Assembly (NCBI GenBank): GCA_001789205.1
Contig: MFYT01000064.1
Coordinates: forward strand, 65,401-129,400
Source: Candidatus Raymondbacteria bacterium RIFOXYA2_FULL_49_16
GTDB lineage: Bacteria; Fibrobacterota; OXYB2-FULL-49-7; XYB2-FULL-49-35
Direction of reading: 5' to 3'
DNA length: 64,000 nucleotides
Below, piece by piece: positions 28,963 through 63,543 of this stretch. The position numbers and the translations under genes were made by a program. Every line of letters begins with the position of its first letter. Positions within the stretch are counted from its first letter, which is position 1. The notes under the pieces are model-generated. The model had not been told where the DNA came from. It saw nothing but the letters and a program-made list of their open reading frames with translations, and did not search any database.

Positions 28963-29000
28963 GTCATCCCCAATATTTTGAATAGTGTTTAGCTGCTATT

Positions 29001-33248: not shown

Positions 33249-33348
33249 TGTAGTCCCCATTTCTCCCATATTTTAAAAATAATTGGAAAAAGAAGCGCAT
33301 CAATCCCATTTCGGATTTATATATATCACCAATCAGGAAATAACACCC

Positions 33349-33381: not shown

Positions 33382-33454
33382 TGCATCAAAATAAGATGGT
33401 TTTACTCAAAATTTCCGGTGAACATAGTATCATTGATCTAGCAAAAACATGATA

Positions 33455-35611: not shown

Positions 35612-35685
35612 ATGCATCCTTTCTTTATTAATGAATATAGTCCCAAACTACGCAATAACAATTGCATAAAAAACGATAAATAGGC

Positions 35686-35738
35686 GCTTTTTTGGAAAAA
35701 ACACCGGCATTTCTGGAAATCAACAGCATTTTTAGAAA
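35686..35738 (-). promoter_or_regulatory. Operator-like direct repeats, array 2
   Basis: Three related boxes on the + strand: GCTTTTTTGGAAA (from 35686), GCATTTCTGGAAA (35707-35719, identical to array 1) and GCATTTTTAGAAA (from 35726), start-to-start spacing 21 and 19 bases. The array sits between the AraC-type regulator gene and the hydrolase gene it probably controls. Confidence 0.55.
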
Positions 35739-35798
35739 AATAGTACTAGAGAAGGATCAGAACCGGCTGCTGAGCGTTGTATCGTCTGCCGGATGGGT

Positions 35799-37766: not shown

Positions 37767-37823
37767 TACTGTCTGGAAAAAGAAATCAGTATGGCGGACT
37801 CAGAAAATCTTGAAAATAAAACG

Positions 37824-39299
37824 CTATTCATCAACCCCTTTTTCATACCCTTTAATCCCCGTATATCTTTTTCTCATTTTTTCAGCTATCTCCTGTCTAT
37901 TGATAGACTGATAATATATTATATATTCCGGCAGATTTCCTCGTGTATGAAAGGGACCGCCTTCCTCAATCACTTTCCGCATAGGATCCTCGTGTTCCTT
38001 TGACGAAGCAAGCTGCTCCCGCTCCCAATCATTTAAAATTGAACGTCCTTTATCAATAAATTCCGGTTTTTGATCGACCAGATTATTTAGTTCATGCGGA
38101 TCTTTCTTCCAGTTGAAAAGCATATACTCGGGAAGCTCTTTCAATCCGTCCATATAGGTTCTAATAAGGATATGATCACCAAAGAGAACCGATCGTTGAC
38201 AGCTCCAGGGAGCATGGCTTAAGATGAGGAACTCTCTTCCATTTTCTGAGGATCTGAGAAAAGCATCTTTAAAACTTTTTCCGTCCCATTTGCCTGGAAC
38301 AACTAAGCCTGCAAGCCCGAGAATTGTTGCGGAAATATCAAATTGATAATGAAAAGCTGAATTTCTTCCAGGTTCAACTCCGGGCCATTTTATAATCATG
38401 GGGACACGGTTTGTGATAAGATCAGCTGTATGGTGATCGCCGTATATATTCAGTTCTCCCTGATTTTCTCCATGATCAGATGTAATAATTATTGCGGTTT
38501 CTTCATAAATCCCCAGATCTTTTAATTTTTGGACCATTTTCCCGACATGAGCATCCGCATAGCGAATACCAACATCATATCCATCAATCCATGTTTTATA
38601 ATCATCCAGGTTTTTGATCTCTTTCACTTCCCGGTGGGTTGGTTTATCCAACCATGGGGCGTCAAGCGGTGCATTGGCTGAATGAGGGCCAAAGCTCTGC
38701 TGATGTTTATCTATCATCTCCTGTGTCACCCAGGTAGCAATCGGTTCATCTTTAAAGGGATTCTCAACATACTTCGGTGTTCTATAGGGTCTATGCGGGT
38801 CCCAGATATTATAGTGCAGGAACCAGTTTTCTTTTTTATTACTATTGTCTAGCATTTCTAAAGCTTTGGGTGTGACTTCATCAGCTGTTTCGTGTCCATC
38901 CTTTCCGCAATTATATATTTCATTGAATCCGGCATAGAACCACCAAGCCGAATGCCTGTCCGCAAAGGAAGTGACACTGGCCGTATAGTAGCCATTTCTA
39001 CGCAGAACCTCTACAAACTGCCGGTTCTCTTCAGAGGTATGAAATTTCCTGGTTATGCCCTCTTTATACTTGTCCGCGTAGGCGCCGCCATGATTGATGG
39101 CCCCATTATGAAAACCAAACCGCCCGGAATGGAATGCGGCACGGGAAGGCAGACAGGGCGTATCGGAAGCAAAACACTGCGTGAACCGTACACTGTCTTT
39201 ACAGATACTGTCGATATGAGAGGATGTGTTTCTATGGTATCCATAACACCCCAGATGATCGGGACGCAGTGTATCAATATCGATGAGAAGGATTTTCAT
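37824..39299 (-). CDS. Type I sulfatase (arylsulfatase family)
   Basis: 491 residues without signal peptide. Metal ligands Asp7/Asp9 (LLIDIDTLRPDHLG), formylglycine site Cys49-Leu-Pro-Ser-Arg (CLPSR in SDTPCLPSRAAFHSGR), HDPHRPYRTP-like substrate block, and ITSDHGENQGE metal-binding block. A separate maturase must convert Cys49 to formylglycine; none is encoded here. Cytoplasmic location suggests desulfation of small imported sugars. Base composition is AT-rich compared with the flanks, and it pairs with an IclR regulator 23 bases upstream, so it was probably acquired as a unit. Activity on sulfated glycans is inference. Confidence 0.92.
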   Translation of the reverse strand: MKILLIDIDTLRPDHLGCYGYHRNTSSHIDSICKDSVRFTQCFASDTPCLPSRAAFHSGRFGFHNGAINHGGAYADKYKEGITRKFHTSEENRQFVEVLRRNGYYTASVTSFADRHSAWWFYAGFNEIYNCGKDGHETADEVTPKALEMLDNSNKKENWFLHYNIWDPHRPYRTPKYVENPFKDEPIATWVTQEMIDKHQQSFGPHSANAPLDAPWLDKPTHREVKEIKNLDDYKTWIDGYDVGIRYADAHVGKMVQKLKDLGIYEETAIIITSDHGENQGELNIYGDHHTADLITNRVPMIIKWPGVEPGRNSAFHYQFDISATILGLAGLVVPGKWDGKSFKDAFLRSSENGREFLILSHAPWSCQRSVLFGDHILIRTYMDGLKELPEYMLFNWKKDPHELNNLVDQKPEFIDKGRSILNDWEREQLASSKEHEDPMRKVIEEGGPFHTRGNLPEYIIYYQSINRQEIAEKMRKRYTGIKGYEKGVDE

Positions 39300-39322
39300 A
39301 TCACGTTCCTTTTATTCAGACC

Positions 39323-40066
39323 TTATTTTAAGATATTTTGCAGCATCCGCTGCATTGATGAGATTATTTTTTTAGCATCATCAGTTTCTATTGGAGAGAT
39401 GGATTTAGCCAAAACAAAAATCCCTTTAAGCTGGCTTCTCTCTCGCACAGGAAAAGCAATCCGTTTAACACCATTAATATTGTAATAAAGATCCTGTGCA
39501 TACCCGTTTGTTTTAATTTCCTGTATTGCGGAATGTATTTGAGCGGTTGAATGGTTTTTTCGTCTGGTCTGTGCATCGTACTGCCATATCTTCAGCGGAA
39601 TTTGTTGATCCCCAAATGCATACCCCACCCCGGAAACAGCCTCCAGTTCATCATCCCACTTCCTGATGAATCCGATCTGTGCCAGCACTTTCACTTCCTT
39701 ATCGGAAGGGTCTTTCCGGTCCACGAGTATTGGCCCCATCTTGGAAGGGATATACCATTCAGCGGTATATCCGGTCTTCTCTGCGGCCTGCAAAAGTAAC
39801 TGATTAATTTTTTCTTTAAATTGATCAGCTGCTGGAATAGCAGGTATCAGTTTCTGTAGTGCATAATAATGACCGGTTCTCTCATTTCTGGAGACAATAT
39901 CTAAAGAAATCATTTCGTCTAGAATCCGTAACAATGAAGATTTTGGGATCTTTAATACATTTGTCATCTCGTGAAGAGAACTATTATCGTTTTTAGATAA
40001 AAACTGAAGGATTTGGATTCCTCGTGTTAAAGCTGGAGCTGCAGATTTACAAATAATAGATTCCAT
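39323..40066 (-). CDS. IclR-family transcriptional regulator
   Basis: 247 residues from the ATG at 40066; the frame is open to 40210 but the IclR winged helix starts at LTRGIQILQFLSK. HTH: SLHEMTNVLKIPKSSLLRILDEMISLDIV; effector domain from about 80 with GIRRIAFPVRE-like and IFVLAKSISP blocks. It probably controls itself and the sulfatase gene that follows. A 24-bp perfect palindrome overlaps its start codon. AT-rich like the sulfatase. Confidence 0.88.
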   Translation of the reverse strand: MESIICKSAAPALTRGIQILQFLSKNDNSSLHEMTNVLKIPKSSLLRILDEMISLDIVSRNERTGHYYALQKLIPAIPAADQFKEKINQLLLQAAEKTGYTAEWYIPSKMGPILVDRKDPSDKEVKVLAQIGFIRKWDDELEAVSGVGYAFGDQQIPLKIWQYDAQTRRKNHSTAQIHSAIQEIKTNGYAQDLYYNINGVKRIAFPVRERSQLKGIFVLAKSISPIETDDAKKIISSMQRMLQNILK

Positions 40067-40088
40067 ATTTAGAATATATTCTAAATAT
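40065..40088. promoter_or_regulatory. 24-bp perfect palindrome, probable IclR operator
   Basis: Half-sites ATATTTAGAATA (40065-40076) and TATTCTAAATAT (40077-40088). It covers the start codon of the IclR-type gene (40064-40066), fitting autorepression. Confidence 0.55.
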
Positions 40089-40284
40089 AGTATCACCGTA
40101 TCTATAAACTCAACTCTTATTTTCACACATAGTGTCGAACACACTTTAAGTTCCACCAAAGGTGGGTGGTCTCTGGAAGGACCCGCTTCGCTCTCATGAA
40201 AACAAGGCAAAGCGGGTATTCGAACAAGAAGGGGAATAGGAAAAGGTTGCGTCAGCCGAGGAACAGAATTTTCAACGGAAGCTA

Positions 40285-41673
40285 CTAACTAATTCCCTGT
40301 TTTTCCAACACATCACGAATAATGCGCTCCAAAGCGTGCAGGGAAAAGTTCTCTCTCGCAATGGCATAATTTTTTTCCACAACCTGGGTCCGCCTTTTAC
40401 CGTCCCGCAACAAAGCGATAACTTCACCGGCGGCCCGGCGTACAATGGACGGCTCCACGGTAACCAAGTTTCGCTTGTCTGTTCCAGAAACTTGATTTCC
40501 AAGGGACACCACGTCAAAACCGCATTGGGCCAAATCACTGGTCCAAACAGGGTATTCAAATAAACAAACCGGCAATTTGGTAAAGACCGCTTCAATGAAT
40601 TGATTGCCCCACCCCTCCCAAACAGAGGGATAAGTCACAAAATCAGCATGCGCATAACTGTCCCAAAGCGAGTAGATTTTTCTTCCTTCTTCCGCGCCCC
40701 GGCTATGTTTGACAATAGTGGCGCACCAAACCACCTCAACGCCCATTTCAGCGGCTTTGGTTTTGAGCGCCTCTGGATAAGTTCCCGTCAATCCAATGCC
40801 CTCCACATAGCCTGCGCAAACCAGTACAATGCGATCACGCTTTCCAAAACTTCGGCCATGATACAATGGCCCGGCCTCCAAACGAACGCGGTTTTCCGGC
40901 TTTTGCAATTCAGCAATCAGATCAATGGCCAATTCCACGCCTTTGCGGTCCAAAATACGCGTCGCTTGCAGAAAAACAAGATCCGTTTCACGGACACCAA
41001 TGGCGTTACGAAAATCGGCGTTGTACGCATCAAGGGTCCATGCGGGACGATCAAAATCAAAAACATTGGGAACAACGCGGGCCTCTTGCCCTGTTCGCCG
41101 CTTCAGTTCAGCTTGGGCAATGCGGTTGATGACCATATGATGGATATACGGGCGGATAGGCGGGGCGTATTTTCGATAATGCGCCGCCACTTCAGCGCAT
41201 GTTGGTTCCACTTCGCCCGAATCTTCCCACCAAAAATCATGGTTGTGACACGTAACACGCAACCCCCGTTCCGCATGCAACTCGTCCACTGCCTCCACAA
41301 GGGCCTGCATACCAGGCAGGTTGTAGCCCACGGAAACCAGGTTGTTTGGGAAAAGTAATTCAACCTTGAGATCACGCAGATGCTTTAGGAACTGTGGTTT
41401 GATGCGAGCAGCCTGCGCCTCCACCTCAGCCATTAGTTCCAAGGAAGAGTTGTAATCAGAGAGCTTCCGGGTGCCATTTTTGATCACCTTTTGCGTTATA
41501 GGATGAAACGGGTAGAGTTCGGGTATGCAATGCCCACCCGGGACATCCTCGTTACCTGAAATATAATGGACCGTATGGCCCATACGCTCAAGAATAACCC
41601 TCCATTTATCCACTTCCAAAGACACGCCGTCAGTGCGTCCCAAACGATGTTGTGTGAATGCGATGACCGCCAT
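40285..41673 (-). CDS. GT4-family glycosyltransferase
   Basis: 462 residues from the ATG preceded by AAAGGAAA; an ATG 18 bases earlier contains that ribosome site and is rejected. GT-B fold: N-terminal acceptor domain (FTQHRLGRTDGVSLEVDKW, GTD-type Gly loop), C-terminal donor domain with FLQATRILDRKGVELAIDLI and the EX7E motif EGWGNQFIE that binds the nucleotide sugar. Retaining transfer of a hexose is expected; product unknown, possibly a compatible solute or surface glycan. No glycan cluster adjoins it. Confidence 0.88.
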   Translation of the reverse strand: MAVIAFTQHRLGRTDGVSLEVDKWRVILERMGHTVHYISGNEDVPGGHCIPELYPFHPITQKVIKNGTRKLSDYNSSLELMAEVEAQAARIKPQFLKHLRDLKVELLFPNNLVSVGYNLPGMQALVEAVDELHAERGLRVTCHNHDFWWEDSGEVEPTCAEVAAHYRKYAPPIRPYIHHMVINRIAQAELKRRTGQEARVVPNVFDFDRPAWTLDAYNADFRNAIGVRETDLVFLQATRILDRKGVELAIDLIAELQKPENRVRLEAGPLYHGRSFGKRDRIVLVCAGYVEGIGLTGTYPEALKTKAAEMGVEVVWCATIVKHSRGAEEGRKIYSLWDSYAHADFVTYPSVWEGWGNQFIEAVFTKLPVCLFEYPVWTSDLAQCGFDVVSLGNQVSGTDKRNLVTVEPSIVRRAAGEVIALLRDGKRRTQVVEKNYAIARENFSLHALERIIRDVLEKQGIS

Positions 41674-41719
41674 AATATTTCCTTTATTCAACTACCCGAA
41701 CCATACCCGGAGAACATAT

Positions 41720-51297: not shown

Positions 51298-52554
51298 CTA
51301 GGCGAGCGAAACCCGGGGATGCGGTTCGTACTCGATGCGCGCCTCTTTGCCGCTGTTTAGGATAGAAAGCCGCCCTGCTTCCATGACCAGTTCGTTGTAC
51401 GCGCTGTTTTTCGGTGTGGCCAGAATGCCCTCCTGGTCTATGGCGAAGAGCAGCTCCCTGCGCTTGTCCAGCGCTTCTGCGCTGCTGCAGCCGGCTGTGG
51501 CGCTGTTGATCCTGTGTATTGCATGAAGGATCTGCTCAATAGAGCGATACCCATAGCCTGTTGGCCGCATGGCGCCCCCGCTTGCAGGAACATACTGGAA
51601 AAAATCCGGATTGACTTCGTTGTAGACCTTGGCGCTTCCCGCGGCCAGACCGTGTTTTACTCCTCTGAATGAATCGATATGTTCCAGATACCCGCCGTCC
51701 TTGCCGCCGTTCATAAACATCATGAGTCCTTGGGAATTGCCGCCCGGCGCTGTATCAGGATACCCAAAGCCGTTTTGCACATTGAGGCATGCGCCATTGT
51801 TCCAAACCACCCTGCCGTCGGTCCATAAGAAACCCTTTTTGCCATTGGGCCATGGCTCTTCAATCCCATATACTGAAACCGCGACTGGCAGAAGTCCGGT
51901 GATAAAATGGACCAAATCAATATAATGGCACCCCACGTACGAAAAGGCGTCTGAATTCTCTGATGTGCACCAGTTTTGAAAGTTCGAATGCCGGTAATAA
52001 TATGGTTCAATAAGGCGCGCCTGTCCCAGCCTGAAGTCGCCAAACTGGCCCGCCCGGTACTTTGCGCGGGCAATGAGCGAACGGTCGTCAAAGCGTTTGT
52101 GGTATTCAACGGCAACGAGCAGCCCTTTCTCTCTCGCGATATTGCCGATTTCAACGGCCTGGTCGTGTTTGAGCACAAGGGGTTTGACGCACAATACATG
52201 ATGGCCGCGCGCAAGCGCCTCTTTTACCGCGCCATAGTGGAGCTGGTCGGGCAGGGCCACAATGACCGCGCTTTGCGGAGGTAAAGAGGAGAGCGCTTCT
52301 TTGAACAGGTCAGGAAAACATTTTTCCGTGCCGTGTTTCTTATAATCAGGATATGGGGTAAAAACAGACTCGGGAAAGGCCGCGGTAATGCTCTGGCTCT
52401 CGGCCAGGGCCTTGAGCGGGCCGCCATTGAGCGCTGATACGCCCACCTGGTTGACAATGCCCATGCGCTGAAGCTGATACACGGCCGGTAAAATAAGATC
52501 GTTGGTGATCATGCCACCGCCGACGATGAGAACATTAATACTGGAATGAGTCAT
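51298..52554 (-). CDS. Gfo/Idh/MocA-family oxidoreductase (operon gene 9)
   Basis: 418 residues: Rossmann fold with LIVGGGMITNDLILPAV, the dinucleotide-binding acidic loop, and a C-terminal beta-sheet domain. The common EKP substrate motif reads CVKPL (Val for Glu), and VGCHYIDLVHFITG has the expected active-site His. NAD(P)-dependent sugar or inositol oxidation or reduction is expected. It is the last gene of the catabolic operon, 131 bases after the aminotransferase. Confidence 0.88.
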   Translation of the reverse strand: MTHSSINVLIVGGGMITNDLILPAVYQLQRMGIVNQVGVSALNGGPLKALAESQSITAAFPESVFTPYPDYKKHGTEKCFPDLFKEALSSLPPQSAVIVALPDQLHYGAVKEALARGHHVLCVKPLVLKHDQAVEIGNIAREKGLLVAVEYHKRFDDRSLIARAKYRAGQFGDFRLGQARLIEPYYYRHSNFQNWCTSENSDAFSYVGCHYIDLVHFITGLLPVAVSVYGIEEPWPNGKKGFLWTDGRVVWNNGACLNVQNGFGYPDTAPGGNSQGLMMFMNGGKDGGYLEHIDSFRGVKHGLAAGSAKVYNEVNPDFFQYVPASGGAMRPTGYGYRSIEQILHAIHRINSATAGCSSAEALDKRRELLFAIDQEGILATPKNSAYNELVMEAGRLSILNSGKEARIEYEPHPRVSLA

Positions 52555-52580
52555 AAAAACCTCGTTGGAGATATAATGTC

Positions 52581-52674
52581 AGGATCGAGGAACGAGGCAT
52601 GAGACCAGAGGCCATTTGATGGCTGAAAGCCCAGTAAGACCTTTTACCAGTCTCGTTCCTCGCGCCTCGATCCT
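52581..52674. repeat. Imperfect inverted repeat element between operon genes
   Basis: Left arm starting AGGATCGAGGAACGAGG (52581-52597) pairs with a right arm ending CCTCGATCCT (52665-52674), with GTCTCGTTCCTCG before it. Together about 94 bp with a ~45 base centre, lying in the 131-base gap after the Gfo/Idh start. Confidence 0.65.
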
Positions 52675-52685
52675 CGTTCCTTTTT

Positions 52686-54065
52686 TTATTTCTTCCCGCA
52701 AACCTTATCAAACCCTTCTTCCAGAACACCAAGCCCCTCTTCGAGCTGCTCGCGCGTGATGCAGAGAGGCGGACAGATCTTCACTGTGCCGCCACCATTG
52801 CCCACAGGCCCAAAAAGCATGAGCCCGTGTTCAACGCAGTATTTGACAATGGCAAAAGCCGTGTCGTGGTCAGGGATGGTGGTTCCCGGCGCAGTGACCA
52901 TTTGGAGCGCGCCAACAAGGCCCACGCTCTCGCCCCATCCAATGCGGTCTGGATATTTTTTCCAGAGTTTTTTCACTGTTTTTGCAAGGACAATTCCCTG
53001 CTTTGCCGAATTCTGCACCAACTTCTTGGATTTGATTACCTTTAGGTTGGCGAGCGCGGCAGCGCAAATAATGGGATTACCTGTGTGCGTTGAGGTCATT
53101 GATCCAGGAGGAAAAATATTCATCCAATCCGACTTGCCAATAACAGTGGACAACGGCAGGCCAGAGGTAATGCCCTTGCCGCAGCAGATAAGGTCAGCAC
53201 GCACGCCATAGTGTTCAAAAGTGAACATTTTGCCACTACGGCCAATACATGCCTGCACTTCGTCAAAAATAAGGAGCGCTTTGTGTTTGTCAAGAAAGGT
53301 TCTGAGTTTTTTCATGTATTCAACAGGCAGGCGTATTGCACTGCCGCCCTGAAAACTCTCCATAATGACACCGGCAATATTCTTGGGATCAATGTTCTTT
53401 TCCCTGAGCGTGCGCAGGAAAAGATTAAAACTCTGGTCCTTGCCCCTGAACCCGTCCGGACACGGCACATTGATCATGTTGGGGTCGTGGTTAACGATCC
53501 AGTCTTTGAGCGCAGGGCTACCGCCTGCCATCTGCGACCCCATGGTGCGGCCGTGAAAATCAGATTCAAAGGAGATAATAACGTCCTTTTTCCTGCCATT
53601 GTTTTTATGACCATAGGCCCTGCAGATTTTAAGCGCGCATTCCACTGCCTCAGAACCCGTGGTAAGCAGAAAAACCTTGTCGAGATATTTGGGCGCAATC
53701 TGCTTGACTATGAATTCGACCAAGGCCGCGCGTTCGGCATTGGGAAAACAGTAGCTGTGATGCATGGGTTTTTTCGCGGTCGCCACTATGGCCTTCTCAA
53801 TCTCGGGCGCTGCATGGCCGGCATTGGTCACCAGTACGCCTGAGCTGAAATCGAGCCACTTGTTGCCCCATCTGTCGAACACGTGCACCCCGCGCGCCCT
53901 ATCCCAGATGATCAGGGGCTGGCCAGCCATTGAGATTGGCTCGTACTTGCGCAGCATTTCAACAATAGGCTTGGACGCAGGCACTGGTATGGGTGTTTTT
54001 ATCACCCGGTTCTTTGTCTTGATTGATTTTACTTTGACTGGTTCGAACAGAAATTCTTTTCCCAT
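52686..54065 (-). CDS. Class III PLP-dependent aminotransferase (operon gene 8)
   Basis: 459 residues: SFESDFHGRTMGSQ, the FDEVQACIGRSGKMFTFE Asp block and the PLP lysine in CCGKGITSGLPLS. Relatives include acetylornithine, GABA and succinylornithine aminotransferases. In this operon it could remove or add an amino group on a sugar-derived acid. Substrate unknown. Confidence 0.9.
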   Translation of the reverse strand: MGKEFLFEPVKVKSIKTKNRVIKTPIPVPASKPIVEMLRKYEPISMAGQPLIIWDRARGVHVFDRWGNKWLDFSSGVLVTNAGHAAPEIEKAIVATAKKPMHHSYCFPNAERAALVEFIVKQIAPKYLDKVFLLTTGSEAVECALKICRAYGHKNNGRKKDVIISFESDFHGRTMGSQMAGGSPALKDWIVNHDPNMINVPCPDGFRGKDQSFNLFLRTLREKNIDPKNIAGVIMESFQGGSAIRLPVEYMKKLRTFLDKHKALLIFDEVQACIGRSGKMFTFEHYGVRADLICCGKGITSGLPLSTVIGKSDWMNIFPPGSMTSTHTGNPIICAAALANLKVIKSKKLVQNSAKQGIVLAKTVKKLWKKYPDRIGWGESVGLVGALQMVTAPGTTIPDHDTAFAIVKYCVEHGLMLFGPVGNGGGTVKICPPLCITREQLEEGLGVLEEGFDKVCGKK

Positions 54066-54102
54066 TAGTTTCTCCTCAACTCTTTTGTTTCTTCTGAACT
54101 CT

Positions 54103-54161
54103 CCCCCTCCCTTCGAAAAGGGAGGGGGCAGGGCCCGCCTCGACTCGCTCAGCGAGGCGGG
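54103..54161. repeat. Two-hairpin repeat element between operon genes
   Basis: Hairpin 1: CCCCCTCCCTT (54103-54113) with AAGGGAGGGGG (54118-54128), loop CGAA. Hairpin 2: CCCGCCTCG (54134-54142) with CGAGGCGGG (54153-54161), loop ACTCGCTCAG. It fills the 103-base gap between the aminotransferase start and the kinase stop. Confidence 0.75.
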
Positions 54162-54168
54162 GGTGGGA

Positions 54169-55269
54169 TCACCTCTCCACTCTGGCGCCGCCGCCTTTCA
54201 TTGCTTTTTCAACATCCTTTACATTGACCGTTGTGGTGTCGCCGGGCGTGGTCATGGCAAGAGCGCCATGCGCCGCGCCGTAGTTCACCGCTTCTTCCGG
54301 GGTTTTGCCTTCCATGATACCATAGATGAGGCCCGAGGCGAACGAGTCGCCACCGCCAACGCGGTCGTAGATCTCGAGATTGGGACGCTGTATGGCATCG
54401 TAGAACTGGCCATTAGCGTACAAGATGGCGCCCCAATCGTTGACTGACGCTGTTTTTGCATTTCGCAGCGTTGTCGCGACACATTTAAAATTCGGGAATG
54501 TCTTAACAGCCTCGCTGATCATTTTCTTGAAATTCGTGGCATCTAGCTTTGAAATGTTCTTATCAAGTCCCTCAACCTTGAAACCAAACGCGGCTGTAAA
54601 ATCCTCCTCATTGCCTATCATGACATCAACATATTTAGCAATCTCGCGGTTCACCTCCTGGGCCTTTGCCTCGCCGCCAATGTCTTTCCAGAGCGACGGT
54701 CTGAAATTCAGGTCGTAGGAAATGATGGTCCCGTGCTTTTTTGCGGCAATGCAGGCTTCGATAATGACATCGCGCGTTGTTTCTGACAGGCCCGCGAAAA
54801 TACCGCCCGTATGCATCCAGCGCACGCCGTCTTTGCCGAAGATTTTTTCCCAGTCAATGTCGCCCTTTTTCAGCTGCGAGGCAGCGCTGTGGCCGCGGTC
54901 TGAACAGCCCACTGCACCGCGCATGCCAAAACCGCGTTCAGTGAAATTGAGGCCAACGCGCACCTTGCGGCCAATGCCGTCGTAGGGCATCCATTTGACA
55001 TAATCGAGCGCTACGCCGCCCTGCAGAAGAAGGTCTTCGAGCAAACGGCCCACAGGATTGTCGGCAATAGCGGTGACGACCGCTGCTGATTTGCCAAAAC
55101 AACGGCGCAGGCCGCGCGCTACATTGTATTCGCCACCGCCTTCCCACACCTGAAAGGTACGGGTGGTATGTATCCGGTTGTTGCCCGGATCGAGTCTGAG
55201 CATGATCTCGCCCAGACTGAGTATGTCCCACTTGCACTGGTCTTTTGATTTTACATTGAGGATCGCCAT
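54169..55269 (-). CDS. kdgK: PfkB-family 2-keto-3-deoxygluconate kinase (operon gene 7)
   Basis: 366 residues with the ribokinase fold: N-terminal MLRLDPGNNRIHTTRTFQVWEGGGEYNVARGL block, phosphate/substrate loops, and the GGGDSFASG motif containing the catalytic Asp. Its neighbour is KDPG aldolase, so phosphorylation of 2-keto-3-deoxy sugar acid is the best call. Length is somewhat above the ~310 usual for bacterial KDG kinases. Confidence 0.85.
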   Translation of the reverse strand: MAILNVKSKDQCKWDILSLGEIMLRLDPGNNRIHTTRTFQVWEGGGEYNVARGLRRCFGKSAAVVTAIADNPVGRLLEDLLLQGGVALDYVKWMPYDGIGRKVRVGLNFTERGFGMRGAVGCSDRGHSAASQLKKGDIDWEKIFGKDGVRWMHTGGIFAGLSETTRDVIIEACIAAKKHGTIISYDLNFRPSLWKDIGGEAKAQEVNREIAKYVDVMIGNEEDFTAAFGFKVEGLDKNISKLDATNFKKMISEAVKTFPNFKCVATTLRNAKTASVNDWGAILYANGQFYDAIQRPNLEIYDRVGGGDSFASGLIYGIMEGKTPEEAVNYGAAHGALAMTTPGDTTTVNVKDVEKAMKGGGARVER

Positions 55270-55296
55270 TGGTATCTCTCCTTACGTGAGGTCGGG

Positions 55297-55977
55297 TTAC
55301 TTTTTATTCGCTTTTGCTTCTTTTACCAGGGCAAGGGTGTTGCGCACATTTTCCTCTATGCCCTTCCAATCCTTTTTCGAGAGCAATTCCTTGGTCACCA
55401 GTTCGGAACCCATGCCCATGGCAGCCACGCCCGCATTGATCCATTCGCCTATGGATTCCTTTGTGGATTTGACCCCGCCTGTGGGCATGATCTTTGTCCA
55501 CGGCATGGGGCCAATGACTGCTTTCACAAACTTGGGGCCCCCGACCTGTTCGCCGGGAAAGACCTTGCAGATTTCCACGCCCAGTTCCTGCGCGTTTGCG
55601 ATCTCGGTCGCGCTGCCGCATCCGGGAGAATACGGCACCATGCGTCGGTTGCAGATCTTCGCCACTTCGGCGTTGAGCATGGGGCCCACGATGAAATTCG
55701 CGCCGCAATTGAGGAACATGGCCGCCGTGTAGGGATCGCTGATTGAACCGGCACCCAGAATCATGGAGGGGTCTTCCTTTGCCATAATGCGTTCGAGCTC
55801 TGAAAAGACCTCGTACCCATGGTCGCCCCTGTTCACAAATTCAAGCAGCTTGCAGCCACCGCGCGAAACCGCGCACGCCACATTCTTTGCCACATCAATA
55901 TCAGGGCTGAAAAAAACCGGTACCAGACTGATGTCGTACATGGCGCCAAGCACCTGCATGCGTGAAAACCGTGCCAT
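55297..55977 (-). CDS. eda: KDPG/KHG aldolase (operon gene 6)
   Basis: 226 residues: class I aldolase with Schiff-base Lys138 (ICKVFPGE), Glu46 (LLEFVNRGDHG) and the GCGSATEIANAQELG and MPTGGV phosphate-binding loops. It splits 2-keto-3-deoxy-6-phosphogluconate into pyruvate and glyceraldehyde-3-phosphate. Directly after the kinase (27 bases), fixing the last two steps of the operon's route. Confidence 0.9.
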   Translation of the reverse strand: MARFSRMQVLGAMYDISLVPVFFSPDIDVAKNVACAVSRGGCKLLEFVNRGDHGYEVFSELERIMAKEDPSMILGAGSISDPYTAAMFLNCGANFIVGPMLNAEVAKICNRRMVPYSPGCGSATEIANAQELGVEICKVFPGEQVGGPKFVKAVIGPMPWTKIMPTGGVKSTKESIGEWINAGVAAMGMGSELVTKELLSKKDWKGIEENVRNTLALVKEAKANKK

Positions 55978-56005
55978 TGTGTCTCTTCCTTTCTTTTGGA
56001 GTATG

Positions 56006-56977
56006 TTATTTGGTTAAAACCTCTTTATTGACCACGCTTTTTGGCATTTTTCCCTGAAGCACATCAACGACCGCCTGCGCCGCTTTTGTCTGCAGTTCAA
56101 TCTGGGATTCCTCAGAATACCAGCCTGCATGATCCGATAAAATAACATTATCCAACTGAAAAAGTGAATAGTCCTTTGGCACTGGCTCCTGCTCGTGAAC
56201 ATCGAGTCCGGCGCAGTTTATCACCTTGTTTTTCAATGCGTTGAACAGCGCGGCCGTATCAACCAGGCCGCCGCGCGACGTATTGATGAATATGGCTGTT
56301 TTCTTCATTTTGGCAAAGGCCTGGGCGTTGAAAAGATGGCGCGTTTTGTCGTTGAGCGGCACATGGCACGAGATGAAATCCGATTCTTTTACCAGTGTGT
56401 CAAAATCCACTGGCTCAGCCCCTGTCTGTTTCACTGCGTCAACGGGTACAAAGGGATCGAAAACAAGGACCCGGCCAAGGTTAAACCCCTTGAGTTTTCG
56501 ATGGAGCGTCCTGGGGATGTTGCCGTATCCAGCAAGACCGAATGTTTTGCCTTTTATCCGGTACATTGGATCTTGGCGGCCAATGTTCCACATGCCCGCG
56601 CGTACCTGCCTGTCGCGCAAAGCGACCTTGCGCACGCAGCCCATGAAAAGCGCGAATGCCTGGTCTGACACATCTTCCATGCAATAGTCGGGTACATTGA
56701 CCAGTCTGATGCCTTTTTTGGTGCAGGCAGCGGCATCCACGCTGTCAAATCCCACGCCATAGCGGGCAATGACTTTGCACTTGTCCAATCCCTGGATGAT
56801 CTCGGCTGTCAGGGGAGCTAAATTGACGGTAATGCCGTCAGCGTCTTTGCACAGCTTGAGTATTTCCTCCTTGCCGGAGACGCCGCCCGCTTCAACCACT
56901 TCCGCGTCCAGCTTTGCAAACACGCTCTTTTCCGGATCATGATTCGCGTACCTGTCTTCGAGAATGACTACTTTCAT
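56006..56977 (-). CDS. D-2-hydroxyacid dehydrogenase (operon gene 5)
   Basis: 323 residues: NAD-binding domain with AGYGNIPRTLHRKL (the third Gly of GxGxxG is Pro), RGGLVDTAAL (Arg), DVHEQEP (Glu) and SDHAGWYSEES (His) of the catalytic triad. Relatives include phosphoglycerate dehydrogenase and glyoxylate reductase. Substrate unknown; the order of the operon suggests a 2-hydroxy- or 2-keto-acid intermediate. Confidence 0.88.
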   Translation of the reverse strand: MKVVILEDRYANHDPEKSVFAKLDAEVVEAGGVSGKEEILKLCKDADGITVNLAPLTAEIIQGLDKCKVIARYGVGFDSVDAAACTKKGIRLVNVPDYCMEDVSDQAFALFMGCVRKVALRDRQVRAGMWNIGRQDPMYRIKGKTFGLAGYGNIPRTLHRKLKGFNLGRVLVFDPFVPVDAVKQTGAEPVDFDTLVKESDFISCHVPLNDKTRHLFNAQAFAKMKKTAIFINTSRGGLVDTAALFNALKNKVINCAGLDVHEQEPVPKDYSLFQLDNVILSDHAGWYSEESQIELQTKAAQAVVDVLQGKMPKSVVNKEVLTK

Positions 56978-56988
56978 ACGTTGACTCC

Positions 56989-59640
56989 TTAAATAGGTTT
57001 CTCCGATGTCTTCACCATTTCAATGTTCTGATTGGGACAGCGCCACACGCACATGCCGCAGGCAACACAGTCGTCCTCGCGCAGGGAAACGCGCGTACCT
57101 TCAATGTCCCAGGCGAATTTTTTACAGATGTCAAAGCAAATCTGGCAGCCCACGCCGCAACCGCACCGGTAGCACCGCTGCGCCTCTGCCATTGCCTGCT
57201 TTTGGGTCAGTACTGGCGCATAGGGTTTGAAGTCCTTTGACCGCTTGGACGCTGCAACAAGGTCCAGGGGCACGCGCCACACACGGCCATCGGCCCCCTT
57301 GCGCTTAAGCACGGATTCAATATCGATTTTGGCGGTCTTTTCAAGCGGTTTTAGCAGAGACGATGCGCCATTAGACAATTTCTGATCAATGGCCCAGGCA
57401 GCCTGCTTTGCCGTGGCAACAGCTTCAATGACGCTGCTTGCACCCAATACCGCGTCACCGCCCGCAAACACTTTGTCAGACCCGGTGAATCCATTGGCAT
57501 CCGCGGCTATGGTCCCCCACTTTGACGTTTTGACGCGTTCGGCAGTGGGAAGCTCCACTGCCTGGCCCACTGCGTAGATGACCGTATCAACAGGCAGGGT
57601 GAATTCAGCCGGCACAACAGGTTCGGGCCTGCGGCGGTTGGATTTGTCCGCTTCGCCAAGCACGCAATTTGTCATGGTAATGCCCGACACCCGCTTCTTT
57701 TTTGAAACAATCTCCTTTGGGGTGACCAGGTACATTACTTTGACGCCCTCTTCCTCTGCCTCGCGCACTTCTTCGACAGTCGCGGGCATCTCGTCCTTTG
57801 TGCGGCGATAGAGAATGTACACCTCCTTAGCGCCAAGACGCACTGCGGCGCGCGCTGAATCGACCGCGGTAAAACCGCCGCCAATAACAGCGACCTTTTT
57901 GCCCATGCCGGTCTTTTTACCCAATGAAACATTTTTCAGGAAATCGAGCGCCGTAATAACGCCCTGCGCTTTTTCACCCTTGATCATTGAAGTCTGGCCC
58001 TTTTGTGCACCAATGGCAAGATAGATTGCGTCGTATTCTTTCTTCAATTCTTCAAGTTTGATCTCCTTGCCCAATGCCTTGCCATAGACGAATTTCACAC
58101 CCATGCTCTCGATCATCTCGATTTCATCGTTCAGCACCTGTTCAGGCAGCCTGAAGAGCGGAATGGCGTAGCGCAGCATGCCGCCGGCCTTTTCCTCTTT
58201 CTCAAAGAGCGTGACGCCATACCCAGCTCCTGCCAGCAGATGCGCAGCCGTAAGCCCGGATGGACCAGATCCAATAACAGCGACCTTTTTTCCATTTGAT
58301 TTGAAATTCGTAATTCGTAATTTGTAATTTCTCTTTTTCCCTGTCTCAAGCACAAACCGTTTCAATTCCTTGATCTGGATTGCCTCGTCCTTTTCACTGC
58401 GCGTGCATTCTTTTTCGCATGGATGGTTGCAAATATACCCGCAGATGGACTGGAGCGGCGCGGCTGAAGTAATGATCTGAAAAGCCTCTTCGATTTCACC
58501 GTCAGCGATTTTACTGATATACGCCTGGGCCGGAACATGGGCAGGGCATGCGTCCACGCACGGCGCGGAAAGACACTGGTTTTTGAGCCGCGCATTACCC
58601 GCGTAGATCGTCACATTGCTGGCCGCAGTGATATGCGGGGGAATCACATTGCGCAGATCAGCGGTTGAGGAATACCCCTTCTCTTTGAGCCACTTTTTTA
58701 GGTCCACAACCGCGCCCGTCACCCAGCCAAAACCGGAAATGAGGGTCTCAGCACAAACGCACAAAAGATTCGCCCCGCATAAAAGCGCCTGCGCACCGCT
58801 CTTCCAGTCGCGGATGCCGCCCGCACCAGTGATTATCACGCCTTCGCCGTTGAGTTTGCGGATTTCGTAGATGTCCCGAAGGCCCAATGGATGGACCCAT
58901 TCGCTGCACATGCACTGCATGGAGATTTCGTCCTGCAGGGCAATGGGCGATCTGATTGGATTGTCCAGGTCTACATGGTGGATAGCAAGCCGGTTCGCAG
59001 TGCCGCCCACTGCGTCAGCGCCGGCTTCATAGCACGCCTTTGCCACCTGGGCAATGCCGCCCCCTTCGGGCGTAAGTTTTACAAAAAGCGGGATTTTGGT
59101 CGCTTTCCTGATCTCGCTCACAATGCCCGTGAGCATGTTTGCGTTCTTGCCCATGCTGGCGCCGGTTTTTGGCCCGCCGGTATCGCCATCGGAAACTTCC
59201 ACGTTGTACGACATATTGGGACAGCACATGTTCAGTTCATTGGCGTGCGCACCCGCTTCCTCGAACTTTTTGGCCATGTTCACCCAGCCCTCAACACCCG
59301 CTTCGCCCGAATAGGTAATATTGGAAAAAAGGATAATGTCTTTTGTCTCCTTGCGTCCCTTTTCCATGAGGCGCAATCCTTCGTCAAGAGTCAACCGACG
59401 CTCAGTAGTAAAAGAGAGTATCCCGTTTTCGGGCCAATAGCCGTAGCGCGGATAGCGGTTGATATAGGGCGGCGGATCAATGGTGAGTTTGAGCGACGCT
59501 CCCCCCCATCCGGTTTCCTCGATCTTTTTCAGCTGTTCAATGGTCATGGTCGTGGGACCAGAGCCCACGTAAAAGGGATTGCGGAACTTGAGTCCTGCCA
59601 CTTCAACAGGAAGCAGGATGTCGGATTCTGTATGTTTCAT
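56989..59640 (-). CDS. Fused PreA/DHODH-like barrel, GltD/PreT-like flavoprotein and ferredoxins (operon gene 4)
   Basis: 883 residues: residues 1-330, FMN TIM barrel like PreA/dihydropyrimidine dehydrogenase (PFYVGSGPT, NELNMCCPNMS, FVKLTPEGGG, TGAGGIRDWKSG); 356-415, eight-cysteine GltD-type N-terminal cluster (C356, C361, C365, C400, C404, C408, C412); 450-760, FAD- and NADPH-binding Rossmann pair (VIGSGPSG; VIGGGFTAV); 800-870, two-[4Fe-4S] ferredoxin (CGCGVGCQICFDIC, CVACGMCVWRC). Electron flow NADPH to FAD to FeS to FMN is expected. The loop Cys of dihydropyrimidine dehydrogenase appears replaced (ASMGK at 161-165), so the substrate is probably not a pyrimidine. A repeat is inserted in frame at residues 438-446. 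Confidence 0.88.
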   Translation of the reverse strand: MKHTESDILLPVEVAGLKFRNPFYVGSGPTTMTIEQLKKIEETGWGGASLKLTIDPPPYINRYPRYGYWPENGILSFTTERRLTLDEGLRLMEKGRKETKDIILFSNITYSGEAGVEGWVNMAKKFEEAGAHANELNMCCPNMSYNVEVSDGDTGGPKTGASMGKNANMLTGIVSEIRKATKIPLFVKLTPEGGGIAQVAKACYEAGADAVGGTANRLAIHHVDLDNPIRSPIALQDEISMQCMCSEWVHPLGLRDIYEIRKLNGEGVIITGAGGIRDWKSGAQALLCGANLLCVCAETLISGFGWVTGAVVDLKKWLKEKGYSSTADLRNVIPPHITAASNVTIYAGNARLKNQCLSAPCVDACPAHVPAQAYISKIADGEIEEAFQIITSAAPLQSICGYICNHPCEKECTRSEKDEAIQIKELKRFVLETGKKRNYKLRITNFKSNGKKVAVIGSGPSGLTAAHLLAGAGYGVTLFEKEEKAGGMLRYAIPLFRLPEQVLNDEIEMIESMGVKFVYGKALGKEIKLEELKKEYDAIYLAIGAQKGQTSMIKGEKAQGVITALDFLKNVSLGKKTGMGKKVAVIGGGFTAVDSARAAVRLGAKEVYILYRRTKDEMPATVEEVREAEEEGVKVMYLVTPKEIVSKKKRVSGITMTNCVLGEADKSNRRRPEPVVPAEFTLPVDTVIYAVGQAVELPTAERVKTSKWGTIAADANGFTGSDKVFAGGDAVLGASSVIEAVATAKQAAWAIDQKLSNGASSLLKPLEKTAKIDIESVLKRKGADGRVWRVPLDLVAASKRSKDFKPYAPVLTQKQAMAEAQRCYRCGCGVGCQICFDICKKFAWDIEGTRVSLREDDCVACGMCVWRCPNQNIEMVKTSEKPI
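58303..58330 (-). repeat. Short AT-rich repeat inserted in frame
   Basis: GAAATTCGTAATTCGTAATT type 8-9 base units (ATTCGTA three times, last one ATTTGTA) encode NYKLRITNF at residues 438-446 of the fusion, exactly between the cluster domain and the FAD domain. The product of such repeats in either direction reads YELRITN/NYELRIT. Confidence 0.75.
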
Positions 59641-59667
59641 GGAATTCTCCTAATGTGTATAGTTAAT

Positions 59668-59755
59668 GAAAGCTCAGGAGCAAAAAAGCTGAGAAGCAAA
59701 GAAGTCAGATAATGTCTGCCTTCTTTGCTTTTTCGCTCCTGAGCTTCTTCGCTCC
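59668..59755. repeat. Imperfect inverted repeat element between operon genes
   Basis: Left arm has AAGCTCAGGAGC and GCAAAGAAGTCAGA (59670-59709); right arm has TCTGCCTTCTTTGC and GCTCCTGAGCTTC (59715-59748). The arms pair almost completely over about 40 bases with a short loop, in the 115-base gap before the fusion gene. Confidence 0.75.
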
Positions 59756-61051
59756 TCATCCTTTCTCCGGCCCGGTAATGCCCCAGAACTTACCCTGCAA
59801 GACGTTTCTCTCATATTCGAGAAACGCGATTGTCTCTGAATAATTCATGACCGACTTGTACATGGTCTCGCTGAACTCTTTGACGCGCGGGTTTTTTCTG
59901 TCCAGTTTTTCCTTTGCAGCAAAATCAGTGATGAGTTCCTCTGCGCGCTTGTAATCAGCCACCTGATACATGCGCGTAAAATCGCGCACGCAATTGATCT
60001 GCGGAATAATCTTGTGGCCTGTTGGTTTTTTCACCTGGTCAAAGACGCCCTTCACATATTCGCCCGGATCGGCAAATTTGCTCTCGGGCGTGTCGATAAA
60101 CGCGTCTACAAAACCCGCCTTTGCAATTGTCTGGGAAGCTGCGATAAGCAGATTGCGGGCACTATCGTCAGTATCGGCGATAAACGGGCCAACAAAGGGA
60201 CGGATGCGTCCGGGTCGCGTGAGCACATAGCCCTGTATTTCGCCATTGTCGTTTCTGCATACAAACGCCTCGCCCTTTGCATCGGCAAACAAGCCGCGCA
60301 TAATCTCCTCGCGCTCAATAAAACACGAGGCATCGTATCTGATAACCTCATCGAGGTCTTTCTTTTCCATGCGCGTGACATGGTTTGCGTCAAAACGCTC
60401 GTTTGCAAACTGACCCACCGGATAAACCGAGCGCCAGATCCGGTAGGAATCAATATAGCCCACAGCGCCGTACACCGTGTTTCCCATGGGCGTTGCATCG
60501 AGGCCATTGATCACCTTGCCGCTGTCTATGGCGTATTTTACCCCTGCCTGCATCATGGCGTTTGCAATGCCCTGGCGCCGCAGTTCAGGATGCACAAGGA
60601 TCATGCCTATCCAGGTGTTGTTTTTTCCCAGGGGCGCAACGGTCGATGTGCCAATGGGAATGGAGTATCCTTTGCCTTTGAGCTTTGCGACAAAATTGCC
60701 CTTTTCATCAAAATCAATGATACGGTTTATATCGCGCTCGTTCTGGTTCCAACCCGCGCGCATGGTAAGAAGCATCATGGAGTCGCGGTTGTCGCGTATG
60801 GGTTCGAGCTTGAAAAGATCGGTGTTGACTACCTTGGTGTTTGCAGGCAGGTCAATGCGCATGCTCTCGGGAACAATGATCGTGTTCTTTTTCCCGCTTC
60901 GGGTCACAATCTCAACCTCGTGTTCGGTCTTGAACGCATCGCCTTTGGGGTTATTGAACCTGAAGCAGCCGTACAGGTTGTCGACGTATTTATCTTTGCC
61001 CAGTTCAATCTTTTCTGTCTTGCGAGGATCCGCTTTTTTGATAAGTTTCAT
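59756..61051 (-). CDS. GNAT-family N-acetyltransferase with extra domains (operon gene 3)
   Basis: 431 residues: N-terminal beta region (1-80), acetyl-CoA-binding GNAT core (IGMILVHPELRRQGIANAMMQAGVKYA; R-R-Q-G-I-A pyrophosphate loop, about 150-175) and a C-terminal second acyltransferase-like half (about 240-380). Arrangement resembles YitI/Eis-like two-lobed acetyltransferases. It may acetylate an amino sugar of the pathway. Assigned from sequence pattern only. Confidence 0.82.
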   Translation of the reverse strand: MKLIKKADPRKTEKIELGKDKYVDNLYGCFRFNNPKGDAFKTEHEVEIVTRSGKKNTIIVPESMRIDLPANTKVVNTDLFKLEPIRDNRDSMMLLTMRAGWNQNERDINRIIDFDEKGNFVAKLKGKGYSIPIGTSTVAPLGKNNTWIGMILVHPELRRQGIANAMMQAGVKYAIDSGKVINGLDATPMGNTVYGAVGYIDSYRIWRSVYPVGQFANERFDANHVTRMEKKDLDEVIRYDASCFIEREEIMRGLFADAKGEAFVCRNDNGEIQGYVLTRPGRIRPFVGPFIADTDDSARNLLIAASQTIAKAGFVDAFIDTPESKFADPGEYVKGVFDQVKKPTGHKIIPQINCVRDFTRMYQVADYKRAEELITDFAAKEKLDRKNPRVKEFSETMYKSVMNYSETIAFLEYERNVLQGKFWGITGPEKG

Positions 61052-61060
61052 GTTTTTCTC

Positions 61061-62119
61061 CTACATCCATGTCCCAGTCAATGTCTTGCTCGCTTTGTTC
61101 GACTCATAAAACGCCTCGACCAGCTCGATGCAGGCAAGACCTGCCTGACCGCTGACCCCGTAAAAAGGCTCAAGATCTTTGCGCACGCAATCCACGAAAT
61201 ATGCCAGTTCGGGCACATAGCCGAGGTTGTAAAACTCGTCCACAGCAGGCTTGGTCCAGCCATTGGTAAAGTCTGTTTTTTCAATAACGTATGACACGCC
61301 TTTGCGCGAGTAACAATCAACAGGCGAACCAAAGGTAAGGTCAATTTTGAGCACGCCATCTGTGCCGTAGATTTCCACCTTGTCGTCCATGCCGCCAACC
61401 GTGATGTAGTTGCCTTCGACCAGAGCGAATTCGCCATTTTTAAAACGCATGATGCCCACGCCAAAATCCTCGCCCCCATTGCCCTTGTGCACAAAATTCT
61501 TGTCCCCCCCTTCGTTCATGCGGCCAGTGACCTCAACAACAGGGTTGTTGCCTTTTGCCAGAAGGTGCAGCAGATAGCCGATTGGATGGATGGCAAGATG
61601 GATAAAGCTGCCGCCGCCGCAGGACTTTTTGTCTTTGGCAAAGGGTGAATGCGTGCCAAAATGGGTTTCCTTGGCTTTTACATAAAGCACCTTGCCAATG
61701 GCCCCTTCGTCTATGATCTGCTCTATGCGGCGCAGTGCGGGCGCAAAGCACCAGTCCTCGGCATACATGAGCTTCACCTTGTTCTTTTTGCACACGTCGA
61801 TCATTTCGCGCGCGTCCTTTGCTGATGTGGCAAGGGGCTTTTCGCAGATAACGTGCTTGCCAGCCTCAGCAGCCGCAATGACCACGTCGTGGTGGAGAAA
61901 ATTGGGCACGCACACGGAAATGAGCTGGATGTCGGGCCGCTTGAGCATGTCGCGGTAGTCAGGATAGGTGTCGGGTATGTTCCACTTCTTTGAAATGGCC
62001 TCAAGATTATCTATGGCGCCCACCGCGGCTATTTCCACGTGCTCGTTTCTGCTGTATGAATCGCAGTGAAAATCCGCCGCGAATTTTGATCCCACAATGC
62101 CTACGCGTACCTTGTCCAT
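61061..62119 (-). CDS. Gfo/Idh/MocA-family oxidoreductase (operon gene 2)
   Basis: 352 residues: Rossmann motif VGIVGSKFAADFH, EKP motif intact (VICEKPLAT), active-site His in SFIHLAIHPIGYLLH and conserved GGxFIH block. NAD(P)-dependent oxidation of a sugar or sugar acid is expected. Start overlaps nothing; it follows the regulator by 13 bases. Confidence 0.9.
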   Translation of the reverse strand: MDKVRVGIVGSKFAADFHCDSYSRNEHVEIAAVGAIDNLEAISKKWNIPDTYPDYRDMLKRPDIQLISVCVPNFLHHDVVIAAAEAGKHVICEKPLATSAKDAREMIDVCKKNKVKLMYAEDWCFAPALRRIEQIIDEGAIGKVLYVKAKETHFGTHSPFAKDKKSCGGGSFIHLAIHPIGYLLHLLAKGNNPVVEVTGRMNEGGDKNFVHKGNGGEDFGVGIMRFKNGEFALVEGNYITVGGMDDKVEIYGTDGVLKIDLTFGSPVDCYSRKGVSYVIEKTDFTNGWTKPAVDEFYNLGYVPELAYFVDCVRKDLEPFYGVSGQAGLACIELVEAFYESNKASKTLTGTWM

Positions 62120-62132
62120 GAATGCCTCCTCG

Positions 62133-63200
62133 TTATGCGATGAACGGTTGAACTACTATATGCTTGTGATCGACTTCTTGTCCGCTGTGCAGGGCCTCGA
62201 GCAGGGCAAAGGCCTTGTCGCCAATGTCGTACAGGGGCTTGCGCACGTTGTATTGCACCAAATGGTCGTCCCTGTCGCAGTAGTTGACACAAATGGCTGA
62301 TGCTGGGTCTATATTCATTTCCTTGAACGCGGCAAGCGCGCCCCGGGCAATGACATCTGCCTGGAAAAAATACCCGTCAAACCTTACGCCTTTTGACAAT
62401 AGTTCAAGCGCCTTTGCCTTTGCGTTCTCAATGCTGTATTCGCAGGGAACAAGCTCAATTGAAAGTCCATGGTTATGGGATTCGTTTGCAAAGGCGTCGG
62501 CAAGTTCACGTGCATAGGGTGTTATGCCCTGCCGTTCCCACGAGACCGGGCCAATAAAAGCCGCGATGCGAGTGGCATTGTGCTCGCAAAAGAGCTGGGT
62601 TGCCAGGGTTGCGGCATGGGCATTGTCGAGCGATACCTGCGGGATATTCAAATGATATCGGGCGGTTGCCGCGACAAAAGGAAGGCGCAGGGACCCAAAC
62701 CATTCAATATCGCCCACGTCGAGCGGTGAAACAATAATAAGGCCCTGGTACCGGTTTTCAGCAATCGCGTCGCGCACCACGCTGTTCTCCTCCTGCTGGA
62801 CTGACATGCCGTTGATATAGTGCACGTGAAGGCCAGTGCCCATGCGCGAGGTCTGGGTGTTCATGGCTTCCATGAGAGGGACCATGGAGTTGTCTGAGGC
62901 GGAAAAGACGTTGAAGGCAATGACCGCAACGCTGGTCAATTTGCCGCCTTGGGGAGTAATGACCTTTTCCGGGTTAATAAAAGTGCCTTTGCCCTGTTTT
63001 GGGTAGAGGTAGCCTTCCTCTGCCAGGATTTTAAAAGCTTCGTGGACTGTTGATTTACTTATGCCATAGTGTTCGGCCAGGGTCCCAAATGAGGGAAGCG
63101 GTGTATTGGGCTTGTAACGGCCCTTTTCAATGTCCTTTTTAAAGCGTTCGCAGAGTTGGTCTGATATTAATTGATTGGATTTGATGATTGATTGTACCAT
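62133..63200 (-). CDS. GntR-type winged-helix regulator with LacI-like sensor (operon gene 1)
   Basis: 355 residues from the ATG preceded by AGGAG (an ATG at 63227 lies in the tandem repeat). Winged helix 10-75 (LPSFGTLAEHYGISKSTVHEAFKILAEEGYLYPKQGKGTFI) and periplasmic-binding-protein-like effector domain (about 90-350; VAVIAFNVFS, IVSPLDVGDIEW, SLDNAHAATLATQLF, GYFFQADVIARGALAAF). Such hybrids repress sugar-utilisation operons until an intermediate binds; it should control the whole operon from its own promoter. Confidence 0.9.
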   Translation of the reverse strand: MVQSIIKSNQLISDQLCERFKKDIEKGRYKPNTPLPSFGTLAEHYGISKSTVHEAFKILAEEGYLYPKQGKGTFINPEKVITPQGGKLTSVAVIAFNVFSASDNSMVPLMEAMNTQTSRMGTGLHVHYINGMSVQQEENSVVRDAIAENRYQGLIIVSPLDVGDIEWFGSLRLPFVAATARYHLNIPQVSLDNAHAATLATQLFCEHNATRIAAFIGPVSWERQGITPYARELADAFANESHNHGLSIELVPCEYSIENAKAKALELLSKGVRFDGYFFQADVIARGALAAFKEMNIDPASAICVNYCDRDDHLVQYNVRKPLYDIGDKAFALLEALHSGQEVDHKHIVVQPFIA

Positions 63201-63272: not shown

Positions 63273-63386
63273 TATTTTATTATGAGTTTATAAGGGGTTA
63301 TGAATCAATAAATTACGTGAAAAAAGGGGGTTTTATTGCTGGTGCTAAAGGCATTTTGGTACCCTTTTTGAACCCTGGGATCTTTA

Positions 63387-63543
63387 GTTTCAGGCACCTT
63401 TTTGGTACCTGGCACCGTTTTCGTCCCTGGTACCATTGGTGCCAGGGACCATTGGTGCCAGGTACAAGATACAGACTGGTCCTCTCACGCCCTAACATTT
63501 AGTCAAAAAAACGTCCCTGGTACCATTTTGGTGCCAGGTACCT
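63387..63543. repeat. GGTACC/GGTGCC palindromic repeat cluster
   Basis: Units such as TTTTTGGTACCTGGCACC (63400-63417), GTCCCTGGTACC/GGTGCCAGGGAC (63423-63449) and CCCTGGTACCATTTTGGTGCCAGG (63514-63537) repeat GGTACC and GGTGCC with C/T variation and short spacers. Each unit forms a hairpin. No coding region overlaps. Confidence 0.75.

Follow-up and report, generated by a model that had tools for sequence, protein, structure and literature searches.

The kinase/aldolase pair FlKin/FlAld of Flavobacterium has been identified as a 2-keto-3-deoxygluconate (KDG) kinase and a 2-keto-3-deoxy-6-phosphogluconate (KDPG) aldolase (PMC5334617). The breakdown of levoglucosan has been described as a dehydrogenation followed by a beta-elimination (PMC7676230). 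Against this background, a nine-gene cluster at positions 51298-63200 of a 64,000-nucleotide stretch from Candidatus Raymondbacteria bacterium RIFOXYA2_FULL_49_16, phylum Fibrobacterota, was analysed (contig MFYT01000064.1, positions 65,401 to 129,400; the whole stretch is called the window). Domain searches confirmed nine co-directional open reading frames on the minus strand, and their domains match the families named by the first-pass annotation. The lower half of the cluster is an ordinary KDG branch. The first-pass interpretation is supported in part: the upper half is an undescribed, partly conserved redox module joined to this ordinary KDG end.

The lower half consists of a KDG kinase and a KDPG aldolase. 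The kinase aligned over residues 16-366 with 2afb, its closest solved relative, which we take to be the KDG kinase from Thermotoga. The aldolase exceeded the NF005499 cut-off, matched 8di1 across 222 residues and retains the motifs of the class I Schiff-base lysine and the catalytic glutamate (ICKVFPG, LEF). It is the sole PF01081 protein of a genome rated 100% complete, and an aldolase of the same PRK07114 type adjoins a PfkB sugar kinase on a Bacteroidota plasmid as well. That the path probably ends with KDG, or a compound close to it, being turned into pyruvate and a C3 phosphate is well supported by these homologies, in accordance with the first-pass annotation, which had set the end by the same two genes. 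This predicted KDG-to-pyruvate end is the only part of the pathway that appears firmly backed.

The flavoprotein of the upper half, PreAT, holds a dihydroorotate dehydrogenase (DHOD)/PreA-type FMN domain in residues 1-345, followed by PreT-like Fer4_20 and FAD/NAD domains and C-terminal Fe-S motifs. Its Pfam domains and cysteine motifs revealed that the FMN, FAD/NAD and Fe-S modules of one electron path are all present. The PreA half comes first, which is the opposite of the domain order in mammalian dihydropyrimidine dehydrogenase (DPD), and the closest structure in the Protein Data Bank to the PreA domain is that of the pig DPD. The equivalents of Asn668 and Cys671 are kept as N137 and C140, the latter within CCPNMS of the PreA signature ELNMCCPNMS. 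In an alignment of 28 sequences, Asn736-Thr737 of DPD, presumably the contacts to the pyrimidine, were replaced by Ala/Gly-Asn and then Arg (Asn216-Arg217 in PreAT) in all four members of a PreAT clade, which share CCPNMS[YF]NV, T[AG]NRLAI and KLTPEGG. The ordinary PreA-type sequences carry Asn-Thr in 22 of 23 cases and Asn-Ser in the remaining one, with CPH or CPQ in every case. The PreA domain of PreAT and its relatives formed a separate clade with support of 99/99, and PreAT scored 172.5 bits against the NCBIfam PreA model (NF006183), below the cut-off of 335 bits. By its architecture PreAT is probably a DPD-type reductase, and it should not be named dihydropyrimidine dehydrogenase. The cluster of the next nearest PreA (L027/L052) was read by eye as aldehyde-ferredoxin-oxidoreductase/UbiD-like and not as a sugar cluster, and a PreA profile search of viral contigs gave no relatives.

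The conservation of the cluster in relatives was analysed. A second Fibrobacterota metagenome-assembled genome (locus L009) holds, in the same order, the oxidoreductase OxA (81% identity), an extra Gfo/Idh gene, the GNAT acetyltransferase (76%), PreA (49%) and the hydroxyacid dehydrogenase HADH (66%); the PreT part of its PreA is missing, and the other five cluster genes do not adjoin this core. Some 3 kb downstream of the L009 module stands a gene of the alpha-L-rhamnosidase type (L009:10477-13296). In another phylum, genome G221 (locus L051) carries a full-length PreAT (52%) adjoining OxA (57%), the rest of the set being missing, and in G391 of the same family (locus L058) a PreAT of 52% is cut by the contig end. 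The pairing of OxA with PreA(T) is kept in three lineages of two phyla. Among 167 genomes of the window's phylum, a set that leaves aside the L009 genome and in which absences hold at the stated thresholds, no close relatives of OxA, GNAT, the aminotransferase or the second Gfo/Idh protein OxC (at E 1e-15) and no relatives of PreA (at E 1e-20) were obtained, and the best identity for HADH was 41%. A second sample of relatives, centred on G221, comprised mostly the same genomes. GNAT had no close relative in 391 genomes, and plasmids gave no close relatives of GNAT, OxA, PreA, the aminotransferase or OxC. The nine-gene order, for which the first-pass annotation had suggested a search in other genomes, was not recovered; only the four-gene core OxA-GNAT-PreA-HADH (L009) or the pair OxA-PreAT (L051) recurs. 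Scattering of the genes in relatives, which it had named as grounds for refutation, was observed in part, the core being kept together and the kinase standing elsewhere with another aldolase. The nine genes make up a mosaic and not an operon conserved as a whole.

The catalytic motifs of the upper-half enzymes were also analysed. OxA has the Rossmann and Gfo/Idh C-terminal domains and retains the EKP lysine (ICEKPLA). At the usual catalytic aspartate site, which we take to be that of the D-x3-H motif (Asp172 in IolG numbering), it carries His174 (HLxIH), conserved in the window, L009 and L051, whereas solved relatives such as 6jw6 have aspartate. Its place among the Gfo/Idh proteins rests on its domains, and its reaction may differ. 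HADH retains the Arg, Glu and His motifs, and the third glycine of GxGxxG is proline in both the window and L009. The AlphaFold model of GNAT, from a two-row alignment, had a mean pLDDT of 31.5 and was unusable. Outside L009, the nearest GNAT relative (L014:721-2307) is fused behind a creatininase-like domain, assigned by eye, in another gene context. In Streptomyces, the genes around the nearest aminotransferase and around the nearest kinase belong to other pathways.

A single catabolic pathway controlled by the sugar-sensing GntR/LacI regulator is tentatively proposed for the cluster, although it is rather less than probable. The NAD-dependent OxA would oxidise a secondary hydroxyl of a sugar or sugar acid to a ketone, and a leaving group next to the new ketone would be lost by elimination to give an unsaturated ketone. 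PreAT would reduce this product with NAD(P)H electrons passed through FAD, Fe-S and FMN, and HADH would adjust a keto or hydroxy acid. The upper half would deliver KDG or a similar compound; after phosphorylation by the kinase, the aldolase would cleave it into pyruvate and a C3 phosphate. Together, OxA and PreAT would perform a net, redox-neutral dehydration in place of a dehydratase, and GNAT and the aminotransferase may act on an amino or N-acetyl substituent or have an accessory role. The sequence of oxidation, elimination and enone reduction is suggested by the pairing of a Gfo/Idh dehydrogenase with an NAD(P)H-fed flavin reductase, and the levoglucosan pathway offers a precedent for a Gfo/Idh oxidation with ensuing elimination and redox steps (PMC7676230). 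The type of the regulator, the predicted kinase and aldolase and the pairing of OxA with PreA appear well supported by homology. The step order, the occurrence of an elimination and the assignment of KDG to the end of the upper half are inferences. The first-pass annotation was right that no dehydratase or transporter is included: no sugar-acid dehydratase, no KduI/KduD-type entry and no transporter was found among the nine genes, the contig being visible for only 800 bp upstream of the regulator.

The kinase orthologues of the phylum gave further insight into the link between flavoproteins and KDG. They were found at 67-71% identity in three other families, and a fourth family has a partial orthologue (65%); in 11 of 12 loci the kinase adjoins a different KDPG aldolase (25-36% identity to that of the window). 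In two of these loci an old yellow enzyme (OYE)-type FMN oxidoreductase carries a fused PreT-like module (32-34% identity to that of the window) and stands with an FAD_binding_2 protein, a KDPG aldolase and a KDG kinase (L090:9187-16747 and L094:2837-10421, the latter with an SDR too). For this further KDG-linked flavoprotein set we found no description. One phylum holds FMN enzymes of the OYE and of the DHOD/PreA family, both with a fused PreT module and both beside orthologous KDG kinases, and it is mainly because of this double occurrence that a flavoprotein feeding KDG is suggested; as an analogy the OYE-PreT parallel offers circumstantial support. The broader claim, that 2-keto-3-deoxy sugar acids are made by OxA and PreAT through a new route without a dehydratase and that OYE-PreT evolved the same logic separately in related Fibrobacterota, is an unlikely one at present. 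In family f12, the genes near the kinase encode an SDR, an OYE-type FMN oxidoreductase, an apparent XRE-cupin regulator and a roughly 460-residue protein that matches GH88 below the threshold. In five f12 loci (L085, L089, L092, L093, L095) a protein of 458-486 residues recurs together with an SDR, the aldolase and the kinase near an OYE-type gene; where tested, its GH88 match fell below the threshold. A protein of 484-506 residues also lies near in L085, L089 and L092 and had no Pfam match where tested (L085).

Several observations weigh against a single pathway. The L009 and L051 loci lack the kinase and aldolase beside the module, and the link from the module to KDG comes from one genome. 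No dedicated lyase for the elimination was found among the nine genes. OxA is without the catalytic aspartate and HADH has an altered dinucleotide motif, and their reactions may be atypical. The intergenic gaps from the regulator to OxC are 13, 9, 115, 11, 28, 27, 103 and 131 bp. The short gaps claimed for the cluster hold for five of the eight junctions (9-28 bp) and fail for three (103-131 bp), and all three long gaps bear strong hairpins (z -6.0, -3.2 and -5.7). The genes may instead form separate units, namely a self-contained OxA-GNAT-PreAT-HADH module, a general KDG kinase/aldolase pair that would serve the whole KDG supply of the cell and be located downstream by chance, and a third unit of aminotransferase and OxC. 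This is a real possibility, if not a probable one, and the main rival because no other genome examined joins the module and the KDG pair. It would account for the L009 module without kinase and aldolase, for L051 with OxA-PreAT only, for kinase orthologues that occur in the phylum without the module and for the hairpins between kinase and aminotransferase (103 bp) and between aminotransferase and OxC (131 bp); the single PF01081 aldolase of the genome must, moreover, serve any KDPG route. However, gaps of 28 and 27 bp separate HADH, the aldolase and the kinase, and the latter two have ribosome-binding sites of their own, which fits one transcript, and the kinase of some relatives also stands beside a flavin reductase-PreT fusion. 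The single-pathway model was put first because it is more specific and testable, not because it is clearly likelier than the separate units.

The catabolism of an amino sugar or aminocyclitol is a rather doubtful alternative, in which GNAT would protect or activate the amine, the aminotransferase would remove it, the Gfo/Idh enzymes would act on the ring and KDG would again be the exit. It draws on the presence of GNAT within the core common to L009 and on the class III aminotransferase of the cluster. The nearest solved relative of OxA, 6jw6, is presumably an aminoglycoside enzyme, and in haloarchaea the remote double-GNAT relatives have Gfo/Idh pairs, PIG-L deacetylases, Rid-family proteins and aminotransferases in their vicinity. 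These relatives share, however, only about 25-30% identity, and their neighbourhoods vary. Neither L009 nor L051 has the aminotransferase, whose gene in the window is preceded by a hairpin-bearing gap, and no deacetylase was found among the nine genes. A biosynthetic cluster, whose aldolase would run in reverse and whose product would be a modified deoxy or amino sugar, is improbable. Sets of Gfo/Idh, GNAT and aminotransferase genes are common in sugar biosynthesis, and glycosyltransferase-type genes lie 10-25 kb off, but no nucleotide-sugar enzymes were found among the nine genes, the aminotransferase is class III and not DegT-type, and a GntR/LacI sensor regulator and a KDG kinase are typical of catabolism. 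Pyrimidine reduction, in which PreAT would be a dihydropyrimidine dehydrogenase of the ordinary NAD(P)H kind and the nearby class III aminotransferase would serve beta-alanine, agrees with the pig DPD match but is highly improbable and was rejected on the contact residues and the separate clade, PreAT relatives adjoining a Gfo/Idh gene and no dihydropyrimidinase or ureidopropionase being present among the nine genes.

The features of the cluster are collected in Table 1. The regulator probably starts with the ATG at 63200, which is preceded by AGGAG; most of the nine genes have a GGAG-like site before their start. The contig ends at base 64000, the window edge. Upstream of the regulator, at 63384-63542, lie six copies of a TTGGTGCCAGGTACC-like 15-mer, in part as inverted pairs; the pattern search gave 6 matches against 0.27 expected and none in the rest of the window. 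An Rfam search gave no RNA matches. The next gene after the cluster, CsgG-like, is co-directional yet unrelated. Farther off, the window contains a lower-GC stretch (27841-41691) that encodes a sulfatase (37824-39299), an AraC-type regulator and five proteins whose Por_Secre_tail matches are sub-threshold.

Table 1. Genes and hairpin-bearing gaps of the cluster, with window positions and supporting matches
Feature	Position	Strand	Support
Regulator, GntR-HTH + LacI-type sensor, AraR-like chimera	62133..63200	-	PF00392 + PF13377
OxA, Gfo/Idh oxidoreductase	61061..62119	-	PF01408 + PF02894
Double-GNAT acetyltransferase, N-terminal extension	59756..61051	-	PF00583 + PF18014
Gap between GNAT and flavoprotein genes, hairpin-bearing	59641..59755	-	fold z -6.0
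PreAT flavoprotein, 883 residues	56989..59640	-	PF01180, PF14691, PF07992, PF00037
HADH, D-2-hydroxyacid dehydrogenase	56006..56977	-	domain match
KDPG/KHG aldolase, PRK07114 type	55297..55977	-	NF005499, 323 bits vs cut-off 275
KDG kinase, PfkB	54169..55269	-	2afb full length, E 9e-62
Gap between kinase and aminotransferase, two hairpins	54066..54168	-	fold z -3.2
Class III aminotransferase, PLP lysine motif	52686..54065	-	PF00202, 290 bits
Gap between aminotransferase and OxC, long hairpin	52555..52685	-	fold z -5.7
OxC, divergent Gfo/Idh protein	51298..52554	-	PF01408, 52.6 bits

If the single-pathway model is true, a flavoprotein family known for pyrimidine reduction would also serve sugar catabolism, and the annotation of such proteins as dihydropyrimidine or dihydroorotate dehydrogenases would have to stop. 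A dehydratase-free entry to the KDG branch would be added in the poorly cultured Fibrobacterota. The OxA-GNAT-PreA-HADH core is a small enzyme set that can be tested.

No published pathway with the nine-gene set was found in the open-access literature, where absence is weak evidence; within that scope the first-pass view that the set is undescribed still stands. The Luteolibacter genes for L-glucose and L-galactose, lguABCDEFGH, likewise lead sugar oxidations into a KDG kinase and a KDPG aldolase but use a D-altronate dehydratase, a tagaturonate reductase and an epimerase, all absent from the window cluster; the main text of that report mentions no flavin, Gfo or aminotransferase (PMC12632266). 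The levoglucosan pathway lgdA-B1-B2-C resembles the proposed route in the dehydrogenation that opens an oxidise-eliminate-redox sequence, but its product is glucose, with a dedicated lyase and hydratase and no KDG branch (PMC7676230). The L090/L094 loci have in common with the window cluster a kinase orthologue of 68-70% identity, an FMN reductase carrying a fused PreT module, and an aldolase; they differ in having the OYE and not the DHOD/PreA fold, an aldolase type only 25-26% identical, and no relatives of OxA, GNAT or HADH. With DPD and the bacterial PreT-PreA, PreAT shares the FMN DHOD-like domain with its CP motif, Fer4_20, FAD/NAD and the C-terminal Fe-S motifs, while its order is reversed, an insertion follows the active-site cysteine, Asn736-Thr737 is replaced and the clade is its own. 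The Entner-Doudoroff-type lower branch of uronate and alginate breakdown, represented by FlKin/FlAld, has the same enzyme functions by homology (PMC5334617). The window cluster contains no dehydratase, no KduI and no reductase of a known kind, and a flavoprotein module stands in their place.

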